A stretch of 25,293 nucleotides of DNA from IMG/VR virus record IMGVR_UViG_3300025732_000245, positions 1 through 25,293 of that record. One strand, given 5' to 3'. The position numbers and the translations under genes were made by a program. Shown here piece by piece: positions 598 through 25,293 of the stretch. Source of the stretch: a virus. The notes under the pieces are model-generated. The model saw only the letters and a list, made by a program, of their open reading frames with translations. It had not been told where the DNA came from and did no database searches. Every line of letters begins with the position of its first letter. Within the stretch, counting starts at the first letter, position 1.

Positions 598-2141
598 ACC
601 TACCCGATGATCTGAAAAAAGCGTTACGCCAACGGTTCGTCAGTGACTTCACATGGGCCACGCGAACCGTTTTGGGGTACGGGTTTTTTGACGCGCCGAT
701 GCACGATCAGATCGGTGCGTTTGCCTCCAAGGTGTTCGACGCCAAGGAGAAGTTCTCGGTCTTGCTGGCGCCTCGCGGTCACGGCAAATCGAAGCAGGTG
801 ACGGCGGGCTTGCCCGTGTGGTTGTTGTGCCGCAACCCGAATCTGAAAATTCTGATCATCCACGGTTCGGCGGGACTGGCCGAGTCGATTATGTCGGAAG
901 CCGTCGAGCAGTTTGAACAGAACGAATTGCTGCGTGCGTTGTTTCCCGACGTCGTGTGGAAGACGCGCAAGGACGCGCCGAAGTGGAAGGCCGACGAGAT
1001 TATCCTGAAGCGGAAGATCATCGACCATACGCCGAGTTTGGCGGCGACGTCGATGTCGTCCGCGAAGACGGGTCGGCACTTCGATCTGATTATCTGCGAC
1101 GACTTGGTGAACGCGGAGAACACGACGACGCCCGAGCAGATCGATAAGGTGAAGACGTTCGTGAAGACGCTCTCGCCGCTGCTTATGGGCCCGAAGAGTC
1201 GCATCCTGTTGGTCGGTACCCGATGGCATTACGAAGACTGCTACGGGTGGCTGATGGGATCGAACGAGATGCAGAAGATTACGCGGTCGTTGGTGCTGAC
1301 GCCGTTCAACGAGGATGGGTCGCCGGCGTGGCCGAGCAAGCACACACCCGAATCGCTCGACGCCGAGAAGGCCGCGATGGGTCCGTATCTGTTCTCGGCC
1401 AACTATCTGAACAACCCGTCGCCCGACGGGACGATGCTGTTCAACGAGGAACGCATCAATCGGTTCGTTCCGGAATACGACGCGCAGGGACGCATCAAGA
1501 TCCCGGAACGAGCGGATGGACCTCGGTCGGTGTACTACTTCACGGGGACCGACCCGAACGCCGGCATCGACCAGCAACACGATCTCGGGGTCGTGATGAC
1601 GGTCGGGCGCGACGACGAGGGCAACTTTTGGTTGGTGGACGTCAACGGTGGACACCCGACCGTGGACGAGATGATCGCGTGGATCCGCAAACACGTGCAG
1701 TTGTGGAATCCGATGAGTCTGCTGGTGGAGACGGTTGCGTACCAACGGCAGTTGGCGCATTGGATCCGCAAAGACGCCATGTCGAACGGGCTCGTCTATC
1801 CGATCCGAGAGATCGGCTCGGCAGAACGCGGACGCACGCAGAAGTACACCCGTATCCGGGCGCTCGATCCGTTGATCAACGCCGGGAAGTTGTGGGTGCC
1901 GTATGGCAGCCGCTTCGACGACGTTGTCAAGCAAATCGCGCTGTACTCGTCCGCGGCGCGGCACGACGACTACGTCGATACGCTCGCCGATATTTGGCAG
2001 TATGGAACCAACCCGCCGCCGCGTAAGAAGCCGCAGCCGGCAGGCAACCCGTATACGATTGCCGCGTTCACGGATCGCATACTCAACGAAACGAAACGGC
2101 GCGGCATCGCACGCGTCGAAACCACGACGAGGTACCGCTAA
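594..2141 (+). CDS. terL: Terminase large subunit (DNA-packaging ATPase/nuclease)
   Basis: This is the motor that pumps phage DNA into the prohead and cuts it to length. The frame is open further upstream, but a GTG at 594 overlapping the previous TGA as GTGA gives a sensible start and a 515-residue protein, normal for the family. The ATPase half shows a Walker A loop APRGHGKS (about residues 59-66), a Walker B strand DLIICDD (164-170) with the acidic pair, and a coupling motif VGTRWH (207-212). The C-terminal RNase H-like nuclease half shows the expected acidic residues: D320 in TGTDPNAG, E379 in LLVETV, and D458/D459/D462 in HDDYVDTLA. All key residues are present, so it should be active. 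It is followed by the portal gene, its docking partner, with a one-base TAATG overlap. Confidence 0.96.
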   Translation: MNLPDDLKKALRQRFVSDFTWATRTVLGYGFFDAPMHDQIGAFASKVFDAKEKFSVLLAPRGHGKSKQVTAGLPVWLLCRNPNLKILIIHGSAGLAESIMSEAVEQFEQNELLRALFPDVVWKTRKDAPKWKADEIILKRKIIDHTPSLAATSMSSAKTGRHFDLIICDDLVNAENTTTPEQIDKVKTFVKTLSPLLMGPKSRILLVGTRWHYEDCYGWLMGSNEMQKITRSLVLTPFNEDGSPAWPSKHTPESLDAEKAAMGPYLFSANYLNNPSPDGTMLFNEERINRFVPEYDAQGRIKIPERADGPRSVYYFTGTDPNAGIDQQHDLGVVMTVGRDDEGNFWLVDVNGGHPTVDEMIAWIRKHVQLWNPMSLLVETVAYQRQLAHWIRKDAMSNGLVYPIREIGSAERGRTQKYTRIRALDPLINAGKLWVPYGSRFDDVVKQIALYSSAARHDDYVDTLADIWQYGTNPPPRKKPQPAGNPYTIAAFTDRILNETKRRGIARVETTTRYR

Positions 2142-5530: not shown

Positions 5531-6682
5531 ATGCCGTTTCCAGCAGTAAGAGATACCGCAAACCTCAACACGCTCTACACGGGCGCGTTTGAGTCTGTGT
5601 CGTCGGGCGTGCAGGACATCGTCTTCAAGGAGACGACCCTGCTCAACATCGCGATGAAGATGGGTATGTATCAGCCGGGCAATTACTCGCACCACCACAT
5701 GGTGCCCGTGATTGACAAGGATGACACGACCGTCGTCTCGTTCACCGGCCTTCAGACGCTGCCTACCGCGGCGACGCAGGGCGCTCGTTCGGCGTACTTC
5801 AACTTCGCCAACTACGCGACCAACGTCACCGTATCGTGGGAAGAGCAGCAGCAGATCCGCTCGCCCCATCAGATCGTCGATCTTATGGAAGCGCGTGCGT
5901 ACAAGGCGTACCGCTCGCTCGGATCGCGCCTCGACCGCGACATGTTTTGGGGTAACACCAGCGACTCCAACAACATCCTCGGTCTTGAGCAGGCGATCTA
6001 CCCGAAGCGCCACAACACGACCGGCGACGTCCTGAAGACGGCGCGTTGGCAGTTGCGTCAGGCCAACAACAACTACGGTGGTGTTGGTCGCGCTAACTTT
6101 ACTGCCGATGGCATCGGTGGTACGGGTTGGGAAAACATGGCTGTTGATATGAACAGCAACACCGGCACCATCTCCACGGGCTTCGGTTCGGACAACACGT
6201 TCGCGCTTGCGAGCGGTGTCCCGAACAAGGCGCTTCGTGGGTTGGCGCACATGTTCCAAATGCTGACGTGGGGCACCACGATGCCCGACCTCATCATTTC
6301 GGCTCCGCAGCCCTACGAAGACTATCAGAACTCGGCGGCGGGATTCCTTCAGTACGTTCGCACCGGCGGCGATCCGCAGGCGGCGGAACTCGGATTCTCG
6401 ACGACGTCGTTCAAGGGTGCCCAATGGGTGCAGACCGACCGTTGCGTGACGTCCGGCGCGATCAACACCAGCGAAATCGCCAGCACGTCGCCGTACATCT
6501 TCCTGCTCAACACTTCGGTGTGCGGTTTGAAGGTGTCCGACAGCGCCGATTTCGAGGCGACCGAGTTTAAGCAGCCGATTGATCAGGCGGGTGCTGTGGC
6601 TCAGATTCTGTGGCGTGGACAACTGATCGTGGAGAACCCGCGCTATTGCGGCGTGATGTTCAACTACGGATCCTCCGTCTGA
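5531..6682 (+). CDS. Major capsid protein
   Basis: This is the main shell subunit, expected to have the HK97 fold. It has 383 residues, in the usual range, with a strong AGGAGGT upstream. The N-terminal arm (PAVRDTANLNTLYTGAFE) precedes an extended beta segment, then a spine-helix-like stretch EEQQQIRSPHQIVDLMEARA (about 98-117) leading into YRSLGSRLDRDMFWGN. After that comes the ILGLEQAIYP pattern seen in several podovirus and siphovirus capsid proteins. The C-terminal part contains PDLIISAPQPYEDYQ and ends NPRYCGVMFNYGSSV. No N-terminal propeptide is obvious, consistent with a separate scaffold. Placement between scaffold and a small beta-rich decoration-like gene strengthens the call. Confidence 0.92.
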   Translation: MPFPAVRDTANLNTLYTGAFESVSSGVQDIVFKETTLLNIAMKMGMYQPGNYSHHHMVPVIDKDDTTVVSFTGLQTLPTAATQGARSAYFNFANYATNVTVSWEEQQQIRSPHQIVDLMEARAYKAYRSLGSRLDRDMFWGNTSDSNNILGLEQAIYPKRHNTTGDVLKTARWQLRQANNNYGGVGRANFTADGIGGTGWENMAVDMNSNTGTISTGFGSDNTFALASGVPNKALRGLAHMFQMLTWGTTMPDLIISAPQPYEDYQNSAAGFLQYVRTGGDPQAAELGFSTTSFKGAQWVQTDRCVTSGAINTSEIASTSPYIFLLNTSVCGLKVSDSADFEATEFKQPIDQAGAVAQILWRGQLIVENPRYCGVMFNYGSSV

Positions 6683-7908: not shown

Positions 7909-8646
7909 ATGGCCGCAGACGAGATTTTGGTTGACACCCTCGTTGATCGGGTTTCGTTTGCGGTCACGAACAACGCAATACCGGACACCGACCTCGATAC
8001 GGAGATCCGATGGGCGCTGAACGAAAAACTGATGGATCTCGTCACGCGCTCCAACCATTGGGGACTTCGGACCGATGGAAGTTTTTCGACGCAAAACGGA
8101 ATCTCGGAATACGCACTTGCCGATGATTTCCATGAGTTGATCGACTCGTCGGTCGTGTTTACGACCAACGATAAGCGCACGATCCTCTACCTGCCCGAAA
8201 CCGACTTTAACGATTTTTGGTTGCAGACCCGTAACTCGTCGGCCCGTCCAACGCACTACTGGGTACGGGCTCGGTCGCCGGCAACCGGCGTGGCAACGAT
8301 CAAACTGTGGCCTACGCCGGTGGCGGTTGACACGATTGCCTACCGCTATCGTGCCATTCCAACTCCGGTGTCCACAACGGTGCGTGGGGCAGGCGATGTC
8401 CTAGACAGGCGCTTTCCCATCGAACACGCACCGACCTTGATTCATGGGGCGGTGACGCATTTCCCCAACTACCTGAACGCTCAGGACCTTTCGTTCCACA
8501 CGCAACTCTACGAGCAAGGCGTGGCGAAGATGAAGTCTAAGGCGAATCCGATCACCGGCCAAGCGTACAATCGTCGCGCCTACGTCGGGCACTCCGGACT
8601 GGCTCCCCGAGCGTGGTGGGGCATTAACCTTACGGGGCCGACGTAA
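7909..8646 (+). CDS. Head-to-tail adaptor protein (T7 gp11-like position)
   Basis: The product has 245 residues with GAGGT six bases before its ATG. Adaptors form a ring under the portal and connect it to the tail nozzle. The N-terminal half is helical with acidic patches (TDLDTEIRWALNEKLMDLV). The rest has the strand pattern seen in many adaptor proteins: ISEYALADDFHEL, then TIKLWPTPVAVDTIAYRYRAIPTP, where a 'LWPxP...YxYRxxP' segment is characteristic. A long C-terminal helix region (FHTQLYEQGVAKMKSKA) follows. It directly precedes the large nozzle-like protein, with a one-base TAATG overlap, matching the gene 11-gene 12 order of T7-type phages. Family by pattern and position only. Confidence 0.78.
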   Translation: MAADEILVDTLVDRVSFAVTNNAIPDTDLDTEIRWALNEKLMDLVTRSNHWGLRTDGSFSTQNGISEYALADDFHELIDSSVVFTTNDKRTILYLPETDFNDFWLQTRNSSARPTHYWVRARSPATGVATIKLWPTPVAVDTIAYRYRAIPTPVSTTVRGAGDVLDRRFPIEHAPTLIHGAVTHFPNYLNAQDLSFHTQLYEQGVAKMKSKANPITGQAYNRRAYVGHSGLAPRAWWGINLTGPT

Positions 8647-11600
8647 TGGCCTCGCAAAAGGTCACGACAACCGTAGATCGCTTCGGCGGGTTCTCGGATC
8701 GCGCAGTTCCCGTAAAGGCGACGCGTATCGAATCTCCCGATGTCGTGAACGTGGATTTTTCGGAACGCGTAGCCAAGCGACGCAATGGCTACACCCGATT
8801 GCACAACAATCGGTTCGGAGACGCGGCGCTGCGACTGATGCCGCGATGGGACACGGGAACGTTTGACGGCCCGTATGGTCGCATTAAAACCCGGTCGTTC
8901 ATGTATCCGGGAACGGGCACCATTGCGTGGTACATCGGCGTTGGCGTGGTGTTGGCAAAGATGCCAAATCCTGCTCAAACCGTGATGTACGTTGCCAGCA
9001 AAGGCTACGGAACCGGCGCGAATCTGCATTGGTCGATTGTTTACGATTCGTCGATTCAAAACGGCGCATCGCAAATTGTTGGCGGTTGGCGTGCCGTATT
9101 TAATGGAACCGGAGATGCGGCGTCGTTGGAGGTCGCGGACGGTCAAAACTCGTCTACGGCCTACGAAACCGCGGTCGGACGATATCGGTTTCTTGAATTG
9201 ACCATCGACGACGCGACCAAAAAACTAGGGTTCTACGTTTACGATGCGGCAGGGACGCTTGTCGGATCGGCGCTCGACGGCGCGGTGTGGGCCGGCACCG
9301 ATTACACGGGGGGCGGAACCAACGAAGACATCACCATCGGCGTCGGAATGGACACGTCCAACACCATCAACTCAAAGTATTTCTCCGGAACGATTGCCGA
9401 GTTGCGGTTGGCGGTTGGAACGTCCAGCAAGCATGCATATATGCAGGGCTTGTATGCATCGAGGTGGTCCAAAGAAATCCCGGACAACCTGATCGCGTCG
9501 GCGCAAAGCGGTGGCGGGTTGTTTGGTTATTACCGGCTTAACGACGCGAGCGCCGACGGGAGGCTGTATGACTCTTCCTCAAACGCCAATCACGGGTCGC
9601 TCCCATTTAGTCCCCCCACTTGGGCCTTTGACGAGAGCGAGGTCGTTGGATCAAGCGGGCTCCAATGGAGGCCCGATCAACTCGCTTACGTCCGGCTCCT
9701 CAATACCGGAGCCAATCCCTCATTCAACACAGTCTTTGCAGGCACCACGACAGGGGCCACTCCCGCCTCGGGCCAGCGTTGGACCGTTAGAGGGGTATGC
9801 GTCCCGAAGTTACCTCCCGGTGCGACTGCTGCCCCTAGAGGCGTCATCCTGTGGTCTGGAATTAGCACAAACCCCCAACCAGTTGCCATCGGCGTCAACC
9901 TAGACGGATCCAACGCCGATAAGTTCCAAGCCATTTACATGGACAACGCGACCGAGCGCAAAATGACGATCACGTCGGTGAACGTGTCGGCGCTTGTTGG
10001 CAAAAAGGTTCGTTTTTCGTTAGATCGCCGCACGGTGTATTCGACGACCGGGACGATTAATCAGGTCATTTTTCAGATTGCGTATGAGACCGGAGTCGGT
10101 ACGCAGGTGGCAATTGCAACGGCAACGCCAATCACCTGCACCAATACGGTTACCACGTGCGATTCATCGTGGTATATCGGCGCAAGGCTGTCGGCTACCG
10201 GCGTTCAAAGCAATGGCACCGTCGGCGTAATCGACACGACGCGAGGTTCGTTTTGCGGAATTATTGACGACGTTCAATTGATTTGGAACGGAACATCGCA
10301 AGGGCCGCAATACGTCGGTATCGGCTCGGACAATCCGAGCAACGCCGGATATATTTTGAACGAGGTGTCGAGTTGGACTTTCTCCAATCCATCGTTTCAA
10401 ACGGTGTTTTATCTCAAGTTCAACGACGGGTACGGCAACAACCCGTTTGTTGAGACGACGACGGCAAACACTTACACCTGCGATATGTTCCCGGCGCAAC
10501 TGGAAGGCTATCGTTGGGACGCCGGCATCGTCGAGCCCTATCAGATTGTGCGACCTCGGGGGTTGTGGGACTACAAAACGTTTCGAGCCAACGGATCAAC
10601 CGAACGCCGCATTTTGGCGGTTGCTGGTTCCGGGCTGTACGAAATCCCCGTTGGCGGTGGCGTAGCCAAACTAGTTGCCTCCGGGTTCTTTAAAAGCACG
10701 GGAAAGGTGTCGTTTGCCCAATACGGCAACAACGTGATCATGGCCGAGCCTAACGGGCAACGGCCTATGATCTATGACGGCAACTCGTTGCGCTTTGCGG
10801 GGATTGCGGCCCCATCCGCACAAGTATCAGCCAGCGCTTCAACTACCGGCGGCACGCTTGCAGCAGGCACGTATTGGGTTTACTACACGTTTGTAAACAC
10901 CGTAACCGGCGACGAAAGCAATCCATCGCCGGGTGTCGCGGTCACGACAACGGGCACTACTGGGGCAATCAATACGGTCGGCATGATGACGTCACCTGAC
11001 CCGCAGGTGAATGCACGACGCATCTACATCACGGGCGTGAACGGGACCGATGGAGCGGTGGCGTATTTGGTAACGACGGTAAACGACAACACCACAATCA
11101 ACTACGGTGACGCTACCAACAAGGCAATTACGGCGGTCCCAACGGGAACGACGATGGAATATTTTGCCAACCACGAAGCGCCTCAAGCAAGCGTTGTCGG
11201 AGTATTTCGAGATGGCACGTTCCTAGGTGGCAACTCGTTGTTCCCGACTCGCCTGTATCGAAGCGCAATCGGTTACCCGACGCGATACGATCCGATTTCT
11301 TTGTACCTCGATCTTGATCTTGATTCGGGAGATCCGATTACGCACATGATTCGCACCAACAATTATTTGCTGGTGTCCATGCGCGACGGAACAGCACGGG
11401 TGTACACGACTGGCGATACCAACGCGCCCTTTGCTTTCGATTTCCTACCGATTAAGCACGGGGCCGTGGGAGCGCAAGCGGCAGCGTATTCCGAATCGAC
11501 CATCTTCTATATGGCCGATGACGATTGCTTCCAAACCGACGGTCAAAACGAGCAGAACATCACGTCTCCCGACAATCCGCTGTATCCGTCGATTCAATAC

Positions 11601-12464
11601 ACAATGCGCGAAGGTTTAAACGACGCGCTAAAAGATGCCGTATCGGTTGCCGTGTATCACCCGCGAAATCAGGTGTGGTTCTGCGTGGCCGCGACGGGAG
11701 CGACATCAAACAGCATGGTGTTGGTGTACGACTCGTCGCAAGGTATTTGGACCAAATACTTGTTGCCTATCGATACAATCCTTCAAAGCGAAAACGAAAA
11801 CGACGCAACTAGGTTGATTGGGGCAGTAAACGGATACGTCTCAACGCTCGACACCGGATCATATGACGGTGTGACGTCGTTGGTGTCGAGTACCGCCACG
11901 TCGGGCACGACAACGTCCGTGACCATTTCCGGCGTGCATTCCGTGGCCAACGGATTGACGCTGCATTTGTTTAACTTTGCAACGGAAACCGTTGTCACGG
12001 GAACGGTCGAATCGGCTACCAACGATGGCACGAATACGACGATTAAGGTCTACGCGTCGTTCGGCCTGACGCCGGCGGCAGGTGACCGCGTCGTCGTAGG
12101 TGGCATCCCTTGGTACATGGATTTGGTGTTTGACTGGGGCAATCCGGGACGCAAAAAGCGGTTGCGTTGGGTCAAGGTTGCCGGCGTGTCGGACAACGAT
12201 GGAAATTTTATTCGGTGTTCGACGTTCCGCGACAAGCCCGGTAGGTCGTTCAGTTTTGTAAACGCCCGCGAATCATGGATTCAATTCCGGACCGAAGATG
12301 CCTATCGCATCATGATGGTTGGTGGTGAATCGCGGTCAGCGCGAATCCGCTTAACCGAAACGTCGAATCCGTTGTTGCTATCGCCGACGCCGTTGCCGTC
12401 TACAGCGGGAACCATTCAGGTAATCCAAGTAGAAGGTGTCGCGGAAATCTTGGACATCGAATGA
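8646..12464 (+). CDS. Tail nozzle/hub protein with two lectin-like (LamG/concanavalin-type) insertions
   Basis: This 1272-residue protein likely forms the distal tail tube or nozzle. The N-terminus (FGGFSDRAVPVKATRIESPD, then VVNVDFSERVAKRRNGY, about 13-50) matches the 'GG...SPDxxNVDF...KRxGY' opening common in phage nozzle/hub proteins. Residues about 650-1000 show beta-propeller-like strands (RRILAVAGSGLYEIP, VIMAEPNGQRPMIYDGNSL), a fibronectin-like segment near 740 (AGTYWVYYTFVNTVTGDESNPS) and the GDPITHMIRTNNYLLVSMRDG segment near 895. The C-terminal 110 residues resemble the closing beta domain of this class. Between about 75 and 560 there are two jelly-roll-like stretches: one ends in SGTIAELRLAVG with GLFGYYRLNDASADG after it, the other ends FCGIIDDVQLIWNG. 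These are LamG/lectin hallmarks and probably bind glycans. Without them the protein would be about 790 residues. Confidence 0.8.
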   Translation: MASQKVTTTVDRFGGFSDRAVPVKATRIESPDVVNVDFSERVAKRRNGYTRLHNNRFGDAALRLMPRWDTGTFDGPYGRIKTRSFMYPGTGTIAWYIGVGVVLAKMPNPAQTVMYVASKGYGTGANLHWSIVYDSSIQNGASQIVGGWRAVFNGTGDAASLEVADGQNSSTAYETAVGRYRFLELTIDDATKKLGFYVYDAAGTLVGSALDGAVWAGTDYTGGGTNEDITIGVGMDTSNTINSKYFSGTIAELRLAVGTSSKHAYMQGLYASRWSKEIPDNLIASAQSGGGLFGYYRLNDASADGRLYDSSSNANHGSLPFSPPTWAFDESEVVGSSGLQWRPDQLAYVRLLNTGANPSFNTVFAGTTTGATPASGQRWTVRGVCVPKLPPGATAAPRGVILWSGISTNPQPVAIGVNLDGSNADKFQAIYMDNATERKMTITSVNVSALVGKKVRFSLDRRTVYSTTGTINQVIFQIAYETGVGTQVAIATATPITCTNTVTTCDSSWYIGARLSATGVQSNGTVGVIDTTRGSFCGIIDDVQLIWNGTSQGPQYVGIGSDNPSNAGYILNEVSSWTFSNPSFQTVFYLKFNDGYGNNPFVETTTANTYTCDMFPAQLEGYRWDAGIVEPYQIVRPRGLWDYKTFRANGSTERRILAVAGSGLYEIPVGGGVAKLVASGFFKSTGKVSFAQYGNNVIMAEPNGQRPMIYDGNSLRFAGIAAPSAQVSASASTTGGTLAAGTYWVYYTFVNTVTGDESNPSPGVAVTTTGTTGAINTVGMMTSPDPQVNARRIYITGVNGTDGAVAYLVTTVNDNTTINYGDATNKAITAVPTGTTMEYFANHEAPQASVVGVFRDGTFLGGNSLFPTRLYRSAIGYPTRYDPISLYLDLDLDSGDPITHMIRTNNYLLVSMRDGTARVYTTGDTNAPFAFDFLPIKHGAVGAQAAAYSESTIFYMADDDCFQTDGQNEQNITSPDNPLYPSIQYTMREGLNDALKDAVSVAVYHPRNQVWFCVAATGATSNSMVLVYDSSQGIWTKYLLPIDTILQSENENDATRLIGAVNGYVSTLDTGSYDGVTSLVSSTATSGTTTSVTISGVHSVANGLTLHLFNFATETVVTGTVESATNDGTNTTIKVYASFGLTPAAGDRVVVGGIPWYMDLVFDWGNPGRKKRLRWVKVAGVSDNDGNFIRCSTFRDKPGRSFSFVNARESWIQFRTEDAYRIMMVGGESRSARIRLTETSNPLLLSPTPLPSTAGTIQVIQVEGVAEILDIE

Positions 12465-12737: not shown

Positions 12738-15125
12738 ATGCCAATCGGATTGATGACCACCACGTCGGAGTTGTACGCCAGCCTAGGGGCGGCGGTGACA
12801 ACCAACAATCTTGTCGTCGATGTGTCGTATGGCGACCTCGGCAACAACTCCTACGACCTGAAGCAGCAGAAGGCGACGATCACGGGAACGACCCGAGTCA
12901 AGATCGTCGATGCACCGGCGTCGTCGTCCTACAAGCACAACCTTCGCAACGTCGAATGCGTCAACGTCGATACGGTTGCGGCGACCATCACGATTGAACG
13001 CAACGAAGCCGGAACGTACACGACGCTCGTCAAGGTTACGTTGTCGGTTGGAGACATGCTCGGTCTTGGCGATGACGGTTGGTACGTAATGGACAGCACG
13101 GGCGCACGCAAGGGCGTGGGTCCGACCGGGGCGGTTGGTCCGCAAGGTGCAGTTGGACCAACTGGACCACAAGGCGTTAAGGGCGACACAGGTTCTATCG
13201 GCCCGCAGGGAGCGAAGGGCGACACCGGGGCGCAAGGGCCTCAGGGAGCGAAGGGCGATACCGGGCCGCAAGGCCCGCAAGGTTCAACGGGCGCGACAGG
13301 CCCGCAGGGCGCGAAGGGCGATACGGGGCCGCAAGGCCCTCAAGGTTCAACGGGCGCGACAGGCCCTCAGGGAGCGAAGGGCGATACCGGGCCGCAAGGC
13401 CCTCAAGGTTCAACGGGCGCGACAGGCCCTCAGGGAGCGAAGGGCGATACCGGGCCGCAAGGCCCGCAGGGAGACCCCGGTGCGGTTGGCCCTCAAGGCG
13501 TTAAAGGTGATACTGGGCCGCAGGGATTGACCGGGGCGACTGGCCCTCAAGGCGTTAAAGGTGATACTGGGCCGCAGGGATTGACCGGGGCGACTGGCCC
13601 TCAAGGCGTTAAAGGTGATACCGGGCCGCAGGGGCCGCAGGGTTTGACTGGAGCGCAGGGGCCACAGGGTGATACAGGCCCCCAAGGCCCCGAGGGCGGC
13701 ACGACGACGCTGACCACCAAAGGCGACATTCTCACAAGGGATTCCTCAGCCCTCGCACGCCTTCCCGTAGGAACAAACGGTCAGATTCTTTCCGCTGATT
13801 CAGCGGAAGTTACTGGCCTTAAGTGGGTGGCAAACACGGGCGGTGCGCCAACTGGTGCGTCCTACGTCACGCTCGCAACCGACGCAACGCTTACGTCGGA
13901 ACGAGTCCTAACCGCAGGAACCGGGATTACCATTACGGATGCCGGAGCCGGATCGACCGTTACGATTGCGGCGACCGGAAGCGGCGGCGCACCCACGGGA
14001 GCGTCGTATGTCACCCTCGCCACGGATGCGACGTTGACATCGGAACGTGTCCTGACAGCAGGCACGGGCATCAGCATTACCGATGGTGGCGCAGGTGGCA
14101 ACGTGACGGTGGCCGCTTCAGGATTGGCTACCAACACGCCGTCCTACATCACGCTCGCTAACACAGGCGACCTTACGAACGAGCGTGCGCTTGCCGTGTC
14201 GAGTCCGATTACGGGAACCGACGGCGGCGCAGGAAGCACTTATACGCTTGGACTCAATCAAGCGGCGATCACCCACAACAACCTTGGTGGCCTGACGACT
14301 GGCGATCCGCACACGCAGTACCTGACCAAGGCCACGGTTACGACGGCAGGCGATACGTTGTACGCAACGGGCGCATCAGCGATTACCCGTCTTGGTATCG
14401 GAACGACGGGTCAGGTGCTGACGGTGTCAGGTGGCGTACCGACTTGGGCCACGCCTACGACTGGTGTGACGGCGCACAGCGCGTTGACGGGATTAACCAA
14501 CGACGATCATACGCGATACGTCTTTGTGGATCCGGCTTCTTCCACGCGCAACGTCATCACTCCCGGCGGCGACTTCAAGGCTCTTGTCGTCAAAGGATCG
14601 GTAAGCCAAACCGCAAACCTGATTGAATGTCAATTGAACGGCGGGACGGTAAGATTTGCGGTTGCCTCCACAGGAAACGTTATTGGGTATGGATTTGATT
14701 CATCCAATCGCGCCATCACCAACGTTTCCGACCCGACAGCGGCTCAAGACGCTGCGACCAAAGCGTATGCCGACACCAAGGTCGCGGCCTCGACACTCAC
14801 TACCAAGGGTGACCTCTTGGGAAGGACGGCTTCGGCGGTAACTAGAGTTCCCGTAGGGACAGATGGTTACTTCCTGAAAGCCGACTCTGCAAACGCCAAC
14901 GGTGTATCGTGGGCAACGGCAACCTTCTCGTCTGCGCTCACCACCAAGGGCGACATCTTGGTGCGCGATGCGTCTGCGGATACGCGCTTGCCCGTGGGGA
15001 CAAGCGGCTACATTCTTTCGGCTAATCCATCTACGTCAACTGGACTGGAATGGATTGCTAACTCAGGTGGGGGCGGCGGTGGATCCGTTCCTGACTTTGT
15101 TCTCTTTAATCAGGGGATCATTTAA
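12738..15125 (+). CDS. Collagen-repeat tail fibre protein
   Basis: The 795-residue product begins with a globular beta-rich domain (1-127) that is probably the virion-attachment part. Then come 64 uninterrupted Gly-X-Y triplets (about 128-320), which should form a trimeric collagen-like stalk without hydroxyproline. The distal part (321-795) contains two kinds of repeated segments. Three [19 protein letters not shown]-type units sit near residues 370-500. Four TTKGDIL...LPVGTxGxIL-type units sit near 324, 530, 686 and 733. Both kinds are common in phage fibres. The C-terminus is glycine-rich ([14 protein letters not shown]). It starts at ATG 12738, one base after the previous stop, and its TAA overlaps the next ATG (TAATG). 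The role is host recognition or holding the distal adhesin. Confidence 0.9.
13248..13470. repeat. 63-bp tandem repeats encoding Gly-X-Y units
   Basis: A 63-base unit starting GCGAAGGGCGATACCGGG recurs at 13248, 13311 and 13374, with a partial fourth copy from 13437. Each unit encodes seven collagen triplets ([21 protein letters not shown]). Copies differ at only a few bases, pointing to recent slippage or unequal recombination. Confidence 0.93.
13488..13637. repeat. 54-bp tandem repeats encoding Gly-X-Y units
   Basis: A second unit of 54 bases starting GGCCCTCAAGGCGTTAAAGG recurs at 13488, 13542 and (partly) 13596. Each encodes six triplets ([18 protein letters not shown]). The first two copies are identical or nearly so over the whole unit. 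It follows the 63-base array directly, so the stalk grew by two independent expansions. Confidence 0.92.
13838..14260. repeat. Three protein-level repeats in the distal fibre
   Basis: The first two units encode nearly the same roughly 47 residues ([20 protein letters not shown] and on to VTIAATG/VTVAASG). The third is degenerate ([20 protein letters not shown]). At DNA level the first two differ at many third codon positions while the amino acids are conserved, so they are old repeats held by selection, unlike the young collagen repeats. Confidence 0.8.
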
Positions 15126-16744: not shown

Positions 16745-17419
16745 ATGGCTGAAATCGTTGTCGGGCGGGCAGATTGGCGAAACTCCCAACATCTTTGGGA
16801 ATTGCGACTAGCGTATCTTGCTGAGGAGATCGAGCGCGAGCCGAAATTCGCCATCGAAACCCCGGCGCAGATGGCGCGAATGGCGCATCAAACGCATGAG
16901 TTCGTGTTCTCCGACAACCGCGCCATCTTTATGGCGTACCGAGCCGAGGAGCCAATCGGATATTTGATTTTGGAACTCGGAGACTACGTCGGCTTCTACG
17001 AGCGCACGGGCGTTCGCGTGGCCGGGTTCTACGTGATTCCGACCGAACGCAAGGGCGTGGCGGGCCAAAAACTTCTGCGTGCCGGATATGACGCCGTCCG
17101 AAAAAACGGGTATCCTAGAACCCAAGCCGTGGTAACGGTTGGCAACGATGCCATGCGGAACCAACTGGAGCGCAACGGCTACCGGCTCGTTTCGGTTATT
17201 TACGAACGAGAGGAGCGATCCAATGGGAAGCATGACCTCGGGGCAGAAGCAGAGCAAGAAGTTCACGCAGCAAGCGGTGGGAGCCCTAACAGCGGGCCAG
17301 CAGCAAATGCTGTCGAATCCGCTGTTCATGGCGGGGCAACAACTTGCGATGGAGTACGCGAAGAATCCAACGACGTTCAACCCGCAGTTGATCGCACAAC
17401 TGCGAGCGTTGGCGGCTGA
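16745..17419 (+). CDS. GNAT-fold (N-acetyltransferase-like) protein at a T7 gp13-like position
   Basis: The ATG at 16745 lies 17 bases after the previous stop, without a clear ribosome-binding site. The frame gives 224 residues. Residues 1-158 form a GNAT domain: FSDNRAIFMAYRAEEPIGYLILELGDYV (two central strands, written here in part), VAGFYVIPTERKGVAGQ (about 91-108, the acetyl-CoA loop region) and the closing MRNQLERNGYRLVSVIYERE. The loop reads RKGVAG, one glycine short of the usual R/QxxGxG/A, so binding of acetyl-CoA may be weak or lost. As I recall, T7 gp13, an internal virion protein, belongs to the GNAT clan and sits at the same place in gene order. Residues 160-224 are a low-complexity tail that overlaps the next gene by 197 bases. 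Acetyltransferase activity is possible but not shown. Confidence 0.78.
   Translation: MAEIVVGRADWRNSQHLWELRLAYLAEEIEREPKFAIETPAQMARMAHQTHEFVFSDNRAIFMAYRAEEPIGYLILELGDYVGFYERTGVRVAGFYVIPTERKGVAGQKLLRAGYDAVRKNGYPRTQAVVTVGNDAMRNQLERNGYRLVSVIYEREERSNGKHDLGAEAEQEVHAASGGSPNSGPAANAVESAVHGGATTCDGVREESNDVQPAVDRTTASVGG
17211..17215 (+). promoter_or_regulatory. Ribosome-binding site fixing the start at 17223
   Basis: AGGAG lies seven bases before ATG 17223, inside the coding sequence of the GNAT gene. An ATG at 17139 in the same frame has no such site, so 17223 is the better start. Confidence 0.75.
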
Positions 17420-17802: not shown

Positions 17803-18924
17803 ATGGGCGATTTTGCAGCCGGATTTGCATCGGGCGCGGGTCAGGTATTGCCCGGTGCAATCCAAGACAAGGAACGACGGGCGCAGCAAGAAGAGCAATT
17901 TGGGCAAGAACTAGCATTACGAAACAAAGCGCTTGACCAAGAGGCCGCTCGCAATGCCGCATACATCGCGTTGCTAAATGCTCAAGCCGCAGCGATGACT
18001 CAAGGCACCGCCGCCGGCGCGTTTGAAACCGATCCCGCGGTGATTGAGGCCAAACGCCGTGCTGCGATTGCTGCGGGCCAAAAGGCTGGGGCAGAAGGTG
18101 ACACCGCGCGGGACCGACTTCAAGCGGAACTTGATGCGCTTCGCGCTCAAATCGCCGCGACTCAAGCCGGAAGCGATCTTGCTGGCAAACGATTTGAATT
18201 TGAGAAATCACAATTCGACAAAACGTTTGCTGAACAAACGAAGCGATGGGAAGCCGAACAGGAAAACATTAAAACGGATCGCGCTCTTCGCGACAAATAC
18301 GCCGGCTGGGATTACGAGTTCAAACTTCAAGAATCGGCCTCACGCGGCGTCTTGGCAAACATCCAACGCGAAGCCGCCGAACGTGCTAAGAATGAATTGG
18401 GTCCAGTTGGAAATGCGTTCATTGGGTACCAACTTCAGCAGTTGCAAGCGTCGGGCGTCGAGGTTCAACCCGATCAGTTCCAGCAACTTGTGAATGCCGC
18501 TAGGCAGTTTGACAATCCAAGTGGAACAGGGCGTCCAACTGGAAAAATTAGTTTTGGTTCAAGCATTCCCGGCATTGGCGCAACCGAAACAGCAGCCGTC
18601 CGAGAACTTATTGGCAACATGCCATTGAAGGATGCGATCCCGGCTATTGCTAGCGATCCTGCTCAAGAAATGCTGTTTTGGGGTCGCACTAAAAAGTTGT
18701 TGGTTCCATACGGACGGACGTTTGTGCCAATTTTCGTAGACGCCGCTGACTACGGGGATGCTAAGGCCACCTACGACAAGGCCGTTTCGGACATTCCGAA
18801 GGAGATGCGAACGCCGGAGCAGATCCAGCGAGCGATTTACGAGTATCAGCAACGATACAACATCAAGAGGCAGGTATCTCCAAATCGTTTAGAGCCGTTG
18901 TTCCGAGCGACAGGAGGCATGTAG
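17803..18924 (+). CDS. Probable internal virion protein with coiled coil (T7 gp15-like position)
   Basis: The ATG at 17803 follows the previous stop by one base, with GGGGA at 17792-17796. The product has 373 residues. The N-terminus (MGDFAAGFASGAGQVLPGAI) is small and hydrophobic, followed by about 160 residues of charged Ala/Glu/Gln/Arg-rich helix with coiled-coil character (ERRAQQEEQFGQELALRNKA and on to KRFEFEKSQFDKTFAEQTKR). The C-terminal 130 residues look globular (SIPGIGATETAAVRELIGNM; FWGRTKKLLVPYGRTFVPIF). It is much shorter than T7 gp15 (747 residues), so equivalence is positional only. Likely a packaged ejection protein. Confidence 0.66.
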   Translation: MGDFAAGFASGAGQVLPGAIQDKERRAQQEEQFGQELALRNKALDQEAARNAAYIALLNAQAAAMTQGTAAGAFETDPAVIEAKRRAAIAAGQKAGAEGDTARDRLQAELDALRAQIAATQAGSDLAGKRFEFEKSQFDKTFAEQTKRWEAEQENIKTDRALRDKYAGWDYEFKLQESASRGVLANIQREAAERAKNELGPVGNAFIGYQLQQLQASGVEVQPDQFQQLVNAARQFDNPSGTGRPTGKISFGSSIPGIGATETAAVRELIGNMPLKDAIPAIASDPAQEMLFWGRTKKLLVPYGRTFVPIFVDAADYGDAKATYDKAVSDIPKEMRTPEQIQRAIYEYQQRYNIKRQVSPNRLEPLFRATGGM

Positions 18925-18928
18925 GCAT

Positions 18929-19543
18929 ATGCCCGACCCAATCAATCCCAACACGCCAGCGACGACTGCAAACAACCCAATGGCCTCCGCGCCGTCGTGG
19001 GATCAGTTCGTCAATCAGTATTACCGTGCGCCTCAGCAGGGGATGATCGGTCGGCAGCAGCAAACGCCAACGTTTTTAAATCCGTTTGCCGGGATGGAAA
19101 TGCCATTCGGGCGACTTGGTGGATACAACGACCCAAGTTTGGGATGGGCATCGTTGATTAACTCCGGCTTGTTGAATCAATACGGAATCACCAATGCCGG
19201 CCAGTTCATGAATTATTATCTCAGCCCTCAAGGGAGTGACCGTCGCGCCTCGGGCGTGGACATCATGCAACAGGTCTTCCGCGATTGGCAGTTGCAGCAG
19301 ATGAGGCAACAGCAGCAAGGGCAACCGCAGCAACAACCGACCGAGGCGCAGGCGGTGCAACCGCAGCAGCAAATTTCTCCTGCTCAAGTTTTGTCGGCAT
19401 TCGCTCAGGTTGCGCCAGTTAACAACCCTCCTCCGCTCGGCACCTACGCGTCGCTGCTGGCGGCGATGAACACCCCGACTCCGCCGGCGGCGCAACAAGC
19501 CGATCCGTTGGCTAGTTGGATTATGCAATATCTCCGAGGTTAA
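18929..19543 (+). CDS. Glutamine/proline-rich protein in the ejection-protein cluster
   Basis: The ATG at 18929 follows the previous stop by four bases, with AGGAGG at 18912-18917 somewhat far upstream. The product has 204 residues. The N-terminal 30 residues are Pro/Asn/Ala-rich. A central globular part contains FGRLGGYNDPSLGWASLINS and GITNAGQFMNYYLSPQ, then a poly-glutamine stretch (about 130-155, RQQQQGQPQQQPTEAQ and similar), a Pro-rich linker and a final ADPLASWIMQYLRG. Low-complexity Gln/Pro linkers suggest a flexible protein that unfolds easily, as needed for passage through the portal. No family recognised. The gene is followed two bases after its stop by the giant ejection protein. 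Confidence 0.68.
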   Translation: MPDPINPNTPATTANNPMASAPSWDQFVNQYYRAPQQGMIGRQQQTPTFLNPFAGMEMPFGRLGGYNDPSLGWASLINSGLLNQYGITNAGQFMNYYLSPQGSDRRASGVDIMQQVFRDWQLQQMRQQQQGQPQQQPTEAQAVQPQQQISPAQVLSAFAQVAPVNNPPPLGTYASLLAAMNTPTPPAAQQADPLASWIMQYLRG

Positions 19544-19545
19544 TC

Positions 19546-22500
19546 ATGCCGATTGATCTGCTACGTCGCCAAGCACCATTTGCTCTCCCGCAACTTCCAA
19601 CGTTGCCGACGTTGCAGAACTACGGAACGATGGGAGCAGCGTCCCGAACCGCGGCGGGAGAAACGCCTCCGGATCTTGCTGGGGTTTGGCCAACCCCCGT
19701 AGACATTTCGCGGGCTGAACGCGAACGTGTCGCATCTCAACAACCGTGGTGGGCCAAGGTTTTTGGATCTGTAGACATCCTGCTCGGTGGTCGTGCCATT
19801 CGCGGTGCCATTCGCGGAATGGGGTACAACTCGGAAATCTCACCGCTTGAGGGGTTTCTTCGCGGTCTTCCGGGCACCGACTTTTTCGATGCAAATCTCG
19901 ACACGTCGTTTGCAGATATTCGGAAAGCGTTTGGCGATTACAACGCAGACGAGGGCGCGGGTAATTTTGTCGTCAATCTAGTCGGCGATCTCCTGCTGGA
20001 TCCGACAACGTATTTGATGCCGCTCGGCGCTACGGCGAAGGCGGCTAGCCTAGCCTTGAAGGCCGACAACGTAGCCGTAGATGCTGCGGCAAACGTGCTG
20101 CCGGCGTTGACACGTAAGAATTACGGTCTTGCATCGTCGGCGCTCCGGGCGTCGGGCATGACGCAGGAACAATTGGTGCAAAACGGGCTGAAGGCCGGCA
20201 TGGTTTTTCACATCCCGTTTACGGATTTTTACAAACCAATGGATCTATTTGGGCTCAAATCTATGAGCCTGAATTCCGCAAAAGCCGTAGACAAACTTGG
20301 AACGCTAATCCGAACATCGCCCGTAACCGGCCACCTCGTGCAGGCGTTCGGTGGCGCAAGGGGTCTTGACGCGGAGCAGTACGCGACCTTCAAGGCGTTG
20401 AAGGCAACGTGGAAAAATCGGCAGGACACCATCACGCAGGGATTTTTGATGTCCTTGTCGAAGATGAATCCTCAGTTCCGCGAGCAGTTGTTGCAAGACC
20501 GAGACACTATGGAAGTGTTTAGCGTCCTGCTTGAAACCGGTGGCTTCCAACACCTCGACGACGCGGGAATGCTGGAACACGTCATCACCAATCGCGAATC
20601 GATCTTGCAAGCGATGGAGGTGGCGCGTCGATACGAAACCGACGATGCGTTCAAGCGGCTGATTGACGACGCCCACGGCGGAACGTTCGACATCGGCGCA
20701 TACATGGACGACATCAAAACGCCGGCGTCGCGTCGAACGGGACCGGGCTATCTCGACACGTTGTTGTCCAGCGAACTTGAAGATGCTGCGGTATCCAAAC
20801 AAAAGGACGCGATTCGTAGGCTGCTCGATGTCAAGTTCGGAAACCGTCCCATGCGGTTGTCCGAAAACATGTTGAACAAGATCGACATGGTTCCTCGACC
20901 GGGCGTAGACATTCCGTTTGCTCACAACAAGTTGGCCGAGGTCGTTCCTCCGGAAACGCTCGACGATCTTCTGCCGGATCGCATCGGAATCAATGCGTCC
21001 GGAACTCTTGCCAAACGAGCGCAGGACACGATTCGGTCGGCAGGATTTGAATCTGCCGAGGACCTCAACCTTGCCGCCAACGGTCAGATTTCGTCGCGTG
21101 GTTCGCCAACGGCTGAGATCATTGCCGAGGCGCAACAGGTTCAGAAGCAAGTGGACACGATTATCGAAGCGGATCGGTTGTCGCTACGTGATCCGGCAGC
21201 ATTGCTTGCGCGACGCGGCGAACTGCTTGCTCGCGCCGGCGGGAAAACGCTTGCCGAGGTTGCGGATCGACGTCGCCAATATCAGATTCTTGCGTCGGAC
21301 GCAAAGGCTCGCGGCGACATGGATCTTGCCGGGCGTTACGTGCAAGCGCAGAAGGCGTTTACCCGCGTAGAGACCGAGATTGCCACGCTTGAACGCGAAA
21401 TGGACAATCTTGTGCGCGAGCCTGAATTGGTTCGTTCGCGGTTCCCGGATTACACCGACGACACGATTCAGCGTCAGATCGACGAAATGAAAGGCGTGCT
21501 TGCCGACCGCGTTCCGGTGACCGAAGGCGAGCGGCTAGCCGAGCGCGTAAGCGCGGAAACCCTACGCAAGGCTACCGTCGGGCGCGTGCTGGATTGGCAA
21601 CGCAAGACGTTGGAAGCCGGCACCGACGCCGAACTTGCCACCCTCCGTTTGCGTGCGGACCAACTGACGCAGTTGGACAACCTCGGTCGTCTCGACGACG
21701 CGGGCCGACGGGAACTTACCGCCAACATCAAACAGCAGCGCGATCTGATCCGCGAAGGCAAAAAACTAGGCGGTCGCGATTTGTTCGATGCCGTCGAGGA
21801 AGCCGCAAAAATTCACGTCAAAACAATGCAGGGAGTGCTTCGCGCCGAACGTGCGGCTGGGCTCATGAATCAAGGCATGGAAATGTACCTGCCGCGCATC
21901 ATGAACCCGGCGGTCAGGCAACTGATTAACGAGCGATTTGATTCGGCGATGGAGGCTATGGGAACGGGCGAGGCTGCTCGATCCTTCATGCAGGGACGCA
22001 CGTTCAACGACCTGCTGACCTTGGAAGCCAACATCCTTATGGAAACAGTTGGCTCCAAGATCACCGGGTTTAAGGGTCTCACGGAGTTCCTGCAACTCGA
22101 CGCGCAGGCAGCGGAGCGCACAATTGCTGCGCTGCAAACGGGCAAGATGAAATGGACGGATTTGATCTTTGGCCCGAAGTGGGCCAACAAGGTCATTCGG
22201 CCTCTTGACCCGGATGTTGCAGACTTCTTCATCGCCAATCCTGTCGTTGCGGATTACGCTCGCATCATGTCGTCGGGCAAGGCTATCGGAAAACCGTTGT
22301 TCGTGCAGATGGCTTTCGACGAGAACGGCGGTCTTGTGAAGGGTGCCGCCAGCATGGGCGACACCGAGGGCGTGGCCGAACTGCTACAGGGTTACGATCC
22401 GACGAAGCATCGTATTCTCATTTACGACCCCGAGCAGAACGTCGCCAAGGTAGCAAGCCGCGCCGACGTCATGTCGGACGTAACCGACTACGCCGTCAAC

Positions 22501-25293
22501 GCCCGTCTCGACACGGTCATGCATCAGGTCCGCGAACACGTCGCGGACCGAATCAAGATGGACGGTGTGGTTCCCGAGCAAATCACGACCGAACTTGATA
22601 AAGCGCTGCGGCATGTGGACGAGTTCAAACTCAACGATGCCTACGATTTGTCGCCGCGACCGGACGACACGGTGTTCGACCGCATGGTGAAGATGCGGTT
22701 GGAAAACGTGCGGCAGACCAAACGGAACGCCGGGTTTGCCAGCGAAGTCCGCATCTATGTAGACAACATTTTGCAAAATGCGTCTAAGGCCGATTCTCCG
22801 GAGATGTCGGCGCTTCGCGAGCAGTTGCAATTCGCGCAACGGCAGCACCAAGGATTGCTGGAACGCATTAACGTAGTGCAGAGTCAGGAACTCAAGCAGG
22901 CCGGCGACGAGTTTGTGCCATCGGCCAAACTTGCCGATCTGCTCGACCGCGTAAGCGCGTCGCGGCAGCGCATCCGGGACATGGCCGACGCGCTATTCGA
23001 CATGTCGTCTGCCGAGGCGGTCGGTGCGCCCGTCAAGTTCAAACTCACGCAGCAGCAATCGAAGGTGGTTTCGCGTGGGCTCGCAGACATCATGTCGGAT
23101 CCGAACGTGCAGGCTAAAGCCCGAGAGTTGCACGGCAACTCCATCTTGGCGATGGCTGAACGAAAGCCGCTCGTTGCTCCGGGAGCGGACGTGGCGGCGT
23201 TGATGCGGCAAACCCAAGACGAACTCAAAGTCTTGATTCCGTATGCCGAGGAATGGGGCAAGTTGTCCGCAGCGGCGAAGGCTGAATTCGGCTCAACTGG
23301 TGATATCGTCAACGAGTTGATTGCCGACCGGCAGCGTATGCTGCGCGACCTGCAAAACATGGTGGCAGGTGTAGATGCCAAGCCGCTTGCAGCGGGGAAC
23401 TTGCACCGACGTCAGGTTGCTGCCGAGGTGCGAGCGGCTGCGAACGTTGAAGAATCAGGGTCGTGGTATTCGATGTCCACCGCTACGAGAGGGGTGAACG
23501 ATGTCCGCGAATCCGTCCGGGCGCAGCAGGCCGCGTTGCGAACTGAAAACGCTGCACGCAAGGCTTCGCTCAACGAGGCGAAGAAACAGATCCTTGGCGT
23601 CGTGGGCGCAGGGAAAAAGCAGTTTGCTGTTGATCCTGCGATGCGTGCCGACGAAGCGCGGGCTCTCTTCAGCATGGAAAACGACTTCCATGTCGATTGG
23701 AACTCGCTGCCTCCTGATATTCAAAAGCGTTATCAGGCGAATGCTAAACTTCGTCTCGTAAAGATGGACGCCGACGTTTACGACAACGTCATGCGTCACA
23801 TCAAAGACATCACCGCCCCGGACACGTTGCGATCTAATTCGTTGGTTCGGGTGCTTGATACCCTCCGGTCGTGGTGGTCGCCGGCAACGACGCTCAATCC
23901 GTTGTACGTGCAGACTCGCGCTCGCGACCTCACGCAAAACCTTGGCACGCTAGCCATGTCGGGCAACGTGGATATGGCGTCGTTGGTCGAGGCCAACCGC
24001 ATTTCGGCGGCGGTCGGGCGTGCAATGGAAAACGGCACTTCCATCCGCCAAGAACTCGGCGACGCTACGCTCGAAATCAACGGCGTGCGCCGCTTGCTGG
24101 CGGACGTCGTCGAGGAGTTCCAACTTCACGGGGTTGTTGGGTCGAGTTCGGTGCGCGATGCGTTTGCCGACGACATGTTCCGGTCGTCGCTGTCGCGCCA
24201 AATGCCGACCCGCACTATGGACACGATTGCCGGCTTGCTCGGGTTCAGCACGGAGCATATCGGCACCGGACGGCAGGGTGGAAAGACGATGAAGGAGGTG
24301 GCGGTCGGAATGCTCGACCCCACCTACAACCCGGTCTACCGACTCGACAACCCGGTCGGAAAGTACGGTCGTGGCGTTGCCCGATACGGCGACGACCTCG
24401 GTCGCACGGCTGCGGCGCTGTACGCCCTTCAGCGCGGTATGTCTATCGAAGACGCCGCTGCTCACGCTAAGTCGTGGCTATACGGATCCGGGGAATACTA
24501 CACGTCGGTCGAACGCAACGTCCTGAAGCGGGTGATCCCGTTCTACGGGTTTATGAAGTGGTCTACCGGGGCGGCGGTCAACCTCATGACCCAAAACCCC
24601 AAGTACCTCGGAGCCGTGTCCAAGGTGCGCGACAACGCGTACCGAGCGTTGGGTCTTTCGCAGGCCGACTTGAACGAGGTGACGCCGCAATTCCTTGAGG
24701 ACAACATCGGCGTTCCGATCATCAACACCCCGGACGGACCGCGCTTCGTCACCTTTGGGCAGGTCCTGCCCGTGCAAGCCTTGCAGGACACCACCAACGC
24801 CATTAGGACGGTGTTTAAGGCGTTTGTCGGTCAGGGTGAGGTTTCGGACACGGCAACATACATCGCCCGCAATATGCATCCGGCGCTCAAATTGACCGTC
24901 GAAACGCTGACCAAGCGGGACATGTTCTCGGGCCGACCCCTTGAACGGTTCCCCGGCGAAAAGGTCGAGATGTTCGGGATTCCTATGGACCCGATGAGCC
25001 GGCAGATGTTCCGCAACGTTCGGTACCTCAACGACCTTGACCGTCTCAACATCTTGGATTTGTCGCAGTTCAAGGCGGCGGTCAACGCCGTGCCCCGAGG
25101 GCAGCGACCCGGCGACCGTGCCGCGCTGCCAACGTGGGTTGCCGGCGTTACCGGCTCGTTCTCGCCGATCCCGGTCCGTGCGTATCAGGTGGACATCGAC
25201 GAGGACCTGCGTCGAGCCCGCGGACAGGACGAGCAGGAACTCAACAAACTCAAGGGGTTCATGCGGCAGGCTTTGTACTCGCCCGAGGGTACG
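19546..25293 (+). CDS. Giant virion-internal/ejection protein (partial, stop lies beyond the window)
   Basis: From ATG 19546 (GAGGT at 19536-19540) the frame stays open to the last base: 1916 codons without a stop. Features seen: an N-terminal NFVVNLVGDLLLDPTTYLMP (about 139-158), a pattern common in large phage internal proteins; long Arg/Glu/Ala/Gln-rich helices with coiled-coil character (about 520-760 and 1060-1130); a MYLPRIMNPAVRQLIN segment near 785; the WWSPATTLNPLYVQTRARDL segment near 1443, like the 'ALNPxFxxRNxxGN' motif of such proteins; and ERNVLKRVIPFYGFMKWSTG at 1656-1675, resembling the C-terminal domain of large polyvalent phage proteins. I see no lytic transglycosylase Glu motif, protease triad or polymerase motif. 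Likely role: packaged in the head and injected to build the DNA-transfer channel, as T7 gp16 (about 1318 residues) does. Confidence 0.85.
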   Translation, partial: MPIDLLRRQAPFALPQLPTLPTLQNYGTMGAASRTAAGETPPDLAGVWPTPVDISRAERERVASQQPWWAKVFGSVDILLGGRAIRGAIRGMGYNSEISPLEGFLRGLPGTDFFDANLDTSFADIRKAFGDYNADEGAGNFVVNLVGDLLLDPTTYLMPLGATAKAASLALKADNVAVDAAANVLPALTRKNYGLASSALRASGMTQEQLVQNGLKAGMVFHIPFTDFYKPMDLFGLKSMSLNSAKAVDKLGTLIRTSPVTGHLVQAFGGARGLDAEQYATFKALKATWKNRQDTITQGFLMSLSKMNPQFREQLLQDRDTMEVFSVLLETGGFQHLDDAGMLEHVITNRESILQAMEVARRYETDDAFKRLIDDAHGGTFDIGAYMDDIKTPASRRTGPGYLDTLLSSELEDAAVSKQKDAIRRLLDVKFGNRPMRLSENMLNKIDMVPRPGVDIPFAHNKLAEVVPPETLDDLLPDRIGINASGTLAKRAQDTIRSAGFESAEDLNLAANGQISSRGSPTAEIIAEAQQVQKQVDTIIEADRLSLRDPAALLARRGELLARAGGKTLAEVADRRRQYQILASDAKARGDMDLAGRYVQAQKAFTRVETEIATLEREMDNLVREPELVRSRFPDYTDDTIQRQIDEMKGVLADRVPVTEGERLAERVSAETLRKATVGRVLDWQRKTLEAGTDAELATLRLRADQLTQLDNLGRLDDAGRRELTANIKQQRDLIREGKKLGGRDLFDAVEEAAKIHVKTMQGVLRAERAAGLMNQGMEMYLPRIMNPAVRQLINERFDSAMEAMGTGEAARSFMQGRTFNDLLTLEANILMETVGSKITGFKGLTEFLQLDAQAAERTIAALQTGKMKWTDLIFGPKWANKVIRPLDPDVADFFIANPVVADYARIMSSGKAIGKPLFVQMAFDENGGLVKGAASMGDTEGVAELLQGYDPTKHRILIYDPEQNVAKVASRADVMSDVTDYAVNARLDTVMHQVREHVADRIKMDGVVPEQITTELDKALRHVDEFKLNDAYDLSPRPDDTVFDRMVKMRLENVRQTKRNAGFASEVRIYVDNILQNASKADSPEMSALREQLQFAQRQHQGLLERINVVQSQELKQAGDEFVPSAKLADLLDRVSASRQRIRDMADALFDMSSAEAVGAPVKFKLTQQQSKVVSRGLADIMSDPNVQAKARELHGNSILAMAERKPLVAPGADVAALMRQTQDELKVLIPYAEEWGKLSAAAKAEFGSTGDIVNELIADRQRMLRDLQNMVAGVDAKPLAAGNLHRRQVAAEVRAAANVEESGSWYSMSTATRGVNDVRESVRAQQAALRTENAARKASLNEAKKQILGVVGAGKKQFAVDPAMRADEARALFSMENDFHVDWNSLPPDIQKRYQANAKLRLVKMDADVYDNVMRHIKDITAPDTLRSNSLVRVLDTLRSWWSPATTLNPLYVQTRARDLTQNLGTLAMSGNVDMASLVEANRISAAVGRAMENGTSIRQELGDATLEINGVRRLLADVVEEFQLHGVVGSSSVRDAFADDMFRSSLSRQMPTRTMDTIAGLLGFSTEHIGTGRQGGKTMKEVAVGMLDPTYNPVYRLDNPVGKYGRGVARYGDDLGRTAAALYALQRGMSIEDAAAHAKSWLYGSGEYYTSVERNVLKRVIPFYGFMKWSTGAAVNLMTQNPKYLGAVSKVRDNAYRALGLSQADLNEVTPQFLEDNIGVPIINTPDGPRFVTFGQVLPVQALQDTTNAIRTVFKAFVGQGEVSDTATYIARNMHPALKLTVETLTKRDMFSGRPLERFPGEKVEMFGIPMDPMSRQMFRNVRYLNDLDRLNILDLSQFKAAVNAVPRGQRPGDRAALPTWVAGVTGSFSPIPVRAYQVDIDEDLRRARGQDEQELNKLKGFMRQALYSPEGT

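Follow-up and report, generated by a model that had tools for sequence, protein, structure and literature searches.

A giant protein closing a podoviral virion module: a probable ejected protein with a C-terminal module likely related to that of N4-type virion RNA polymerases

The gene that runs off the end of the window (the whole stretch of DNA analyzed, 25,293 nucleotides) encodes a giant protein that a short-tailed phage probably carries inside its virion and ejects into the host with the DNA. Profile comparisons indicate that its C-terminal ~400 residues are likely to share distant homology with the far C-terminal end (about residues 3177-3450) of N4-type virion RNA polymerases. Among ejected proteins of giant size, those of T7, P22 and N4 have been characterized in detail; the protein described here belongs to a large family that fills the same slot and includes isolates on Arthrobacter, Microbacterium and Cellulosimicrobium.

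Results

The giant gene and its surroundings

Translation of window positions 19546-25293 on the plus strand gave 1,916 residues and zero stops, in agreement with the preliminary description. The window is the entire IMG/VR record, exactly 25,293 bases, and because the record itself terminates inside the gene the frame is open up to the window end. Extension of the contig, which had been proposed as a check, supplied the stop: an IMG/VR scan located the sister contig IMGVR_UViG_3300025848_000068 (42,102 bases; locus label L002), which encodes the 1,916 residues without any difference (100% identity) and carries the stop at L002:15952, making the complete protein 1,983 residues long. The visible part by itself exceeds T7 gp16 (3,957 nt, 1,318 residues) by ~600 residues, as had been stated. 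The start ATG at 19546 lies two bases past the stop of the upstream gene, with a GAGG-like site ahead of it, and the uneven codon-position G+C of the frame (0.64/0.45/0.62, 0.66/0.39/0.71 and 0.63/0.44/0.74 in successive thirds) resembles that of the adjacent genes. Since the two contigs differ in the collagen-like fibre gene (795 aa in the window, 774 aa in the sister contig), an artefact limited to one assembly is unlikely. The frameshift or assembly error that had been considered as a source of the open frame is contradicted by the presence of the same frame in two non-identical assemblies, and the giant open frame is a real gene. The fibre genes themselves (window 12738-15125, L002:3256-5580) are 63 nt (21 codons) apart in length, the giant protein being identical, and the difference reflects either repeat-number variation or repeat assembly.

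The following genes of the window surround the giant.

462..2141, + strand: terminase large subunit (phrog_38, E 1e-90)
2141..4099, + strand: portal / head-tail connector (phrog_332 head-tail adaptor, E 2.1e-6; phrog_1216 portal, E 1e-5)
5531..6682, + strand: major capsid protein (phrog_9953, E 6.3e-28)
8646..12464, + strand: virion structural protein, 1,272 aa (phrog_3287, E 4.5e-11)
12738..15125, + strand: collagen-like tail fibre (PF01391, E 6.9e-28)
16745..17419, + strand: GNAT-type acetyltransferase, inside the virion module (phrog_1249, E 6.5e-9)
17803..18924, + strand: 373-aa protein (position; weak chance-level matches only)
18929..19543, + strand: 204-aa Pro/Gln-rich protein, directly upstream of the giant (position; no family match)
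19546..25293, + strand: giant virion-module protein, residues 1-1916 of 1,983 (open frame; stop from the longer contig)

The terminase resembles those of podoviruses including Pam1, CRP-4 and SIO1, among others, at 22-26%, and a glycine-rich tail protein is also encoded in the virion module upstream of the giant; tblastn with the 1,272-aa structural protein gave no phage match. The 373-aa, 204-aa and giant genes form one block, in which the 373-aa protein is possibly a middle-sized ejection partner and the 204-aa protein possibly a small one, and neither neighbour shows similarity to N4 gp51/gp52 or T7 gp14/gp15. The sister contig continues past the giant with a 79-aa frame, then a holin (phrog_13712, E 1.4e-13), a lipoprotein-like frame and a frame of 1,021 aa, after which genes lie on the minus strand. 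The giant thus closes the virion module, with the lysis genes and one further large frame coming next, before the opposite strand. The 1,021-aa frame (L002:16914-19979), right before the strand switch, has no Pfam match, and its best PHROG match is at E 0.0028.

A family of giants with conserved ends

Searches with the giant against Pfam, NCBIfam and PDB sequences returned no significant match, and those against PHROGs gave matches at chance level only; neither Pfam nor PHROGs has a model for the family itself, and no paper describing it was among those listed in searches of the open-licence literature. By tblastn, a single match was obtained from 50,697 phage records, in a Manatee Spring podovirus; the C-terminal third of the match led to a second relative. 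With a seven-member alignment as query, 29 loci were confirmed among 74 candidate stretches, a count that includes the window's own contig and contigs found earlier. The family is present in about 25 IMG/VR contigs, and since complete members span 951-2,497 aa, 1,983 residues is large without being extreme. A 28-row alignment (A4) was assembled from which L023, L026, L041 and L042 (near-duplicates or fragments), L020 and L030 (second copies of contigs) and L010 and L015 (second copies of the window's own contig) were left out.

Further searching added DS1, Shocker and eight Arthrobacter records, Jasmine among these, so that the isolates in the family comprise Arthrobacter phage Jasmine (gp29), Microbacterium phage Shocker (gp37) and Cellulosimicrobium phage DS1. 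The giants of DS1, Shocker and Jasmine stand outside the core profile and match it at E 4.5e-49, 8.9e-44 and 1e-21, respectively; all three, the ones tested, match both the N-terminal and the C-terminal profiles. Their mutual identity is about 25-32% over the C-terminal third, they occupy the same gene position as the giant here, with endolysin or peptidase genes next, and they are annotated merely as hypothetical. Electron microscopy shows Jasmine to be a podovirus, its tail measuring 10.3 nm, and its authors assign the virion genes to 11-29, of which the giant, gene 29, is the last (PMC5513430).

The strand switches within three ORFs of the giant at 18 of the 20 IMG/VR loci for which a downstream ORF is listed (29 loci, less three not indexed and six ending at or just after the giant), a count based on mechanically called ORFs and containing some near-duplicate loci. 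L011 and L039 are the exceptions, the L011 giant preceding more plus-strand genes. A scan of genome contigs gave one relative among 29 candidate stretches, a 2,375-aa protein in a MAG named Clostridium. This member (L057:3701-10828, from a cattle cecum bin) is the last gene on the plus strand before the coding strand changes, and its contig is probably a phage contig. At another locus, a peptidoglycan-binding domain (PF01471, E 8.7e-7) is encoded two genes upstream of the giant (L033:5563-6306).

Conservation is concentrated in the following parts of the giant.

19960..20019, + strand: N-terminal family motif, residues 139-158, DPTTY region (N-terminal profile)
23737..24966, + strand: C-terminal core module, residues 1398-1807 (leave-one-out profile; alignment to N4-type C-termini)
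23872..23949, + strand: core motif, residues 1443-1468, tlNP...RN/qN (alignment A5)
24511..24570, + strand: core motif, residues 1656-1675, K..iPFYGFM (alignment A5)
24871..24942, + strand: core motif, residues 1776-1799, P..k..vE.....mFsgrpl (alignments A2 and A5)

An N-terminal profile built without the giant found its residues 120-191 at E 2.3e-7, around the family motif GF..D..lDPttY. The core profile, made from the family members other than the giant (27 in all), found residues 1398-1807 at E 6.3e-37, compared with E 0.52 for the best of 200 shuffles and E 0.0037 for the reversed sequence. Across the family, the three core motifs take the forms tl.P(GF)h.RN/qN, K..iPF(Y/W)(T/G)FM and P..(e).tg...F(t/s)g.p; in the second of these, all 26 rows of A5 share K, P, F and M. 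The segments that the preliminary description had singled out near residues 139-158, 1443-1468 and 1656-1675 coincide with the most conserved motifs of the family. AAA_16 matches occur in three of 28 members and are probably due to chance; two Walker-like stretches were found by pattern search just past the N-terminal motif.

Relation of the core to N4-type virion RNA polymerases

In a single hhalign comparison, the family core and the C-termini of eight polymerases aligned with a probability of 90.4, a score of 58 and an E of 1.4e-6, the family's PF(Y)(T/G)FM...NP stretch being placed on the polymerases' WFYNFK...NP. Scores in the controls were at most 23.9 for 200 column shuffles, 18.8 for the reversed alignment and 15.6 for an unrelated alignment (the family's own N-terminal region), and removal of the giant from the family alignment left a probability of 78.7 and a score of 49.6. 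When the target set held just those eight C-termini, the family core profile found every one of them, at E 1.9e-6 to 2.2e-3. When it held 1,252 ORFs, the best four matches outside the family were polymerases (E 3e-4 to 1.7e-3), as was the fifth (E 0.016), and the other three, at 0.091, 0.35 and, for N4 itself, 0.78, lay among chance matches. The reverse search, with a polymerase profile against the giant, gave nothing at E <= 10. On these comparisons, we regard homology between the family core and the polymerase C-terminus as likely; for the giant taken by itself, the proposed relation is carried by the family.

Structure predictions, from which GenBank phages were left out, were of poor confidence for both the core (mean pLDDT 56.6) and the shortest relative (L024, 951 aa; 55.6), and they carry less weight for the N4 relation than the sequence comparisons. 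VIA-align of the core model against the PDB placed residues 3214-3500 of N4 vRNAP (9pnr) at the top, with Z 4.6 and 194 residues aligned at an rmsd of 5.9, ahead of a runner-up with Z 3.7 and just 66 residues aligned, although by the tool's own caution a Z at such levels may reflect common arrangement alone. Foldseek of the core model on the PDB gave no match at E <= 0.001, and N4 was not among its best 50; the PDB search with the L024 model gave helical look-alikes only, N4 not being among the matches listed. Against BFVD, the low-confidence core model gave 17 matches at E <= 0.001, four of them named as LPD-containing and ten unnamed. Names with "large polyvalent protein associated domain" made up 12 of the best 50 matches listed, LPD38 appeared by number at rank 24 (E 2.7e-3), and two virion RNA polymerases appeared at E 0.11 and 0.16.

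The gene order around the polymerases is similar. In N4, gp52 (150 aa), gp51 (644 aa) and gp50 (3,500 aa) are followed by opposite-strand genes, which seven other virion RNA polymerase genes also meet, and N4-type gp50 (DEV gp71), as the giant does, comes last in the virion operon, preceded by one small and one middle-sized gene. DEV gp71 and N4 gp50 are described as ejection proteins in the T7 gp16 slot (PMC10925440, PMC12633501). The likeness covers ~250 C-terminal residues by profile comparison; the giant has 1,983 residues versus 3,500 for gp50, its neighbours are not recognisably gp51 and gp52, and unlike gp50 it has no recognised polymerase domain and no HExxH metallopeptidase-like motif in its 1,983 residues. 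Homology to a replication protein, which the preliminary description had weighed as evidence against its reading, concerns here the polymerases' C-terminal module and not the polymerase domain.

Discussion

Nature of the giant

The analysis shows the gene, its full extent, the family, the gene context and the sequence relation of the C-terminal module; we infer virion association, ejection and the role of each part of the giant. The earlier "ejection-type" label draws indirect support from the podoviral virion module, the gene slot, the isolated podovirus relatives and the relatedness of the C-terminus to that of the N4 virion RNA polymerase, which is known to be ejected. The same slot and related C-terminus would also suit a divergent virion RNA polymerase whose middle is recognised by no model. 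We consider that exceedingly improbable, as the N4 polymerase domain and C-terminal region take ~1,100 and ~1,400 residues (PMC5512222) and the giant is shorter overall, and as searches of Pfam and PHROGs at E <= 0.05 gave no polymerase match for any of 28 members. A purely structural protein (core, scaffold or tape-measure-like) retained in the particle would fit the position in the virion module, the helical composition and a weak match of one relative to tape-measure phrog_1538 (E 3e-4). Podovirus relatives whose tail measures about 10 nm, such as Jasmine, need no tape measure, however, and that particular function was rejected on this ground; the variable length of the family (951-2,497 aa) and the relation to the C-terminus of an ejected polymerase make retention in the particle quite unlikely.

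Compatible with an ejected giant, and in our view unlikely, is a polyvalent effector carrier whose main task would be to bring in one or more enzymatic or toxin-like domains concealed in the middle region, with ends for delivery. It is in two relatives, L021 and L025, that such content is suggested, by a YYHGS...GPGVY(S/T)TD stretch and, in L025, by a match to PF18760 (ART-PolyVal) at E 0.0058, which lies under the curated cut-off (17.8 versus 31.2 bits); the LPD-named proteins among the BFVD matches point the same way. The giant itself lacks any significant Pfam, NCBIfam, PHROG or PDB-sequence match as well as HExxH, so the statement in the preliminary description that it has no recognised enzyme domain stands, and the suggestion there that effector domains are carried finds support for these two relatives only, through an ADP-ribosyltransferase-like insert, and none for the giant. 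The ADP-ribosyltransferase-like stretch falls in the middle region, at residues 371-470 of L021 and 357-460 of L025. GtgE (Pfam, E 0.13), a RatA-like protein (NCBIfam, E 0.025) and phrog_4442 (E 0.022) were matched at chance level.

Proposed course of delivery

As an ejected internal protein, the giant would be made late in infection, loaded into the phage head and expelled into the host along with the DNA, which by gene slot would make it the counterpart of T7 gp16 and N4 gp50. The helical C-terminal module of ~400 residues, common to these giants, may have a common job, most likely virion loading or docking, or else passage or refolding at ejection. A loading or delivery role is suggested by analogy with N4 gp50, in which the C-terminal region is required for encapsidation and the N-terminal region serves injection (PMC5512222). 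The N-terminal motif region (about residues 120-190), the second conserved element, may contact the ejection channel or membrane, and the long middle would be a variable, helical payload or spacer, with cargo domains in some relatives.

Several observations count against a T7-style model. Some family members belong to phages of Gram-positive hosts, in which, to our knowledge, T7-style trans-envelope channels are not expected; the neighbours are unlike known channel proteins; and a simple hydropathy scan (1.4 over 19 residues) found no transmembrane segment in the giant or in the 373-aa and 204-aa proteins, whereas T7-type gp14 and gp16 have predicted ones. The likeness to T7 gp16 and P22 gp16 lies in the slot after two smaller genes and in a large, helical, fast-evolving protein; the giant is 1.5 times the size of T7 gp16, with no sequence relation detected and no lytic domain.

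Tentatively, the C-terminal module could be a portable virion-loading and delivery domain common to N4 polymerases, LPD38 giants and this podovirus family, with cargo exchanged between conserved ends. The cargo might then be the polymerase in N4, the ADP-ribosyltransferase-like domain in L021 and L025 and the helical middle here, an assignment we hold with the same reserve, and the domain, on an equally provisional view, would span phages of Gram-negative and Gram-positive hosts. If true, this would assign a function to part of the N4 polymerase C2 subdomain, described as without structural homologue (PMC12633501). A delivery domain of this kind would be testable as a small portable fragment, and the variable middles would be a place to seek proteins acting first in the host.

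Comparison with other giants

The nearest experimental parallel is gp69 of Burkholderia podovirus JC1, a 4,515-aa protein with LPD38 at residues 4195-4401, for which 51 unique peptides were obtained from purified virions by mass spectrometry and whose gene is the last on the plus strand, a minus-strand gene coming next (PMC9144972). LPD38 giants of this kind, like the giant here, close the virion module. Unlike them, the giant has no PF18857 (LPD38) match and lacks DarB, LT and LPD3 parts, and the several disparate catalytic domains in one chain that characterize them were not recognised in it. PF18857 matched none of 28 members at E <= 0.05, nor any of seven at E <= 1, and the giant is therefore not filed under LPD38; a PF18857 search of genome records (0 of 15) is uninformative by itself because its controls were equally silent.

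The giants of Cluster EK and Burro (>4,400 aa) are also giant proteins of an actinobacterial podovirus, and Burro virions hold a ~250-kDa protein (PMC7302621); their gene lies before the portal gene, and they have no profile match to the family. Kinship with T7 gp16, with the Burro/ArMaWen giants or with gp39 of Roseobacter phage CRP-4 was rejected, no profile match being found. In CRP-4, Pam1 and JC1, annotated acetyltransferases precede large proteins, as the GNAT-type gene does here.
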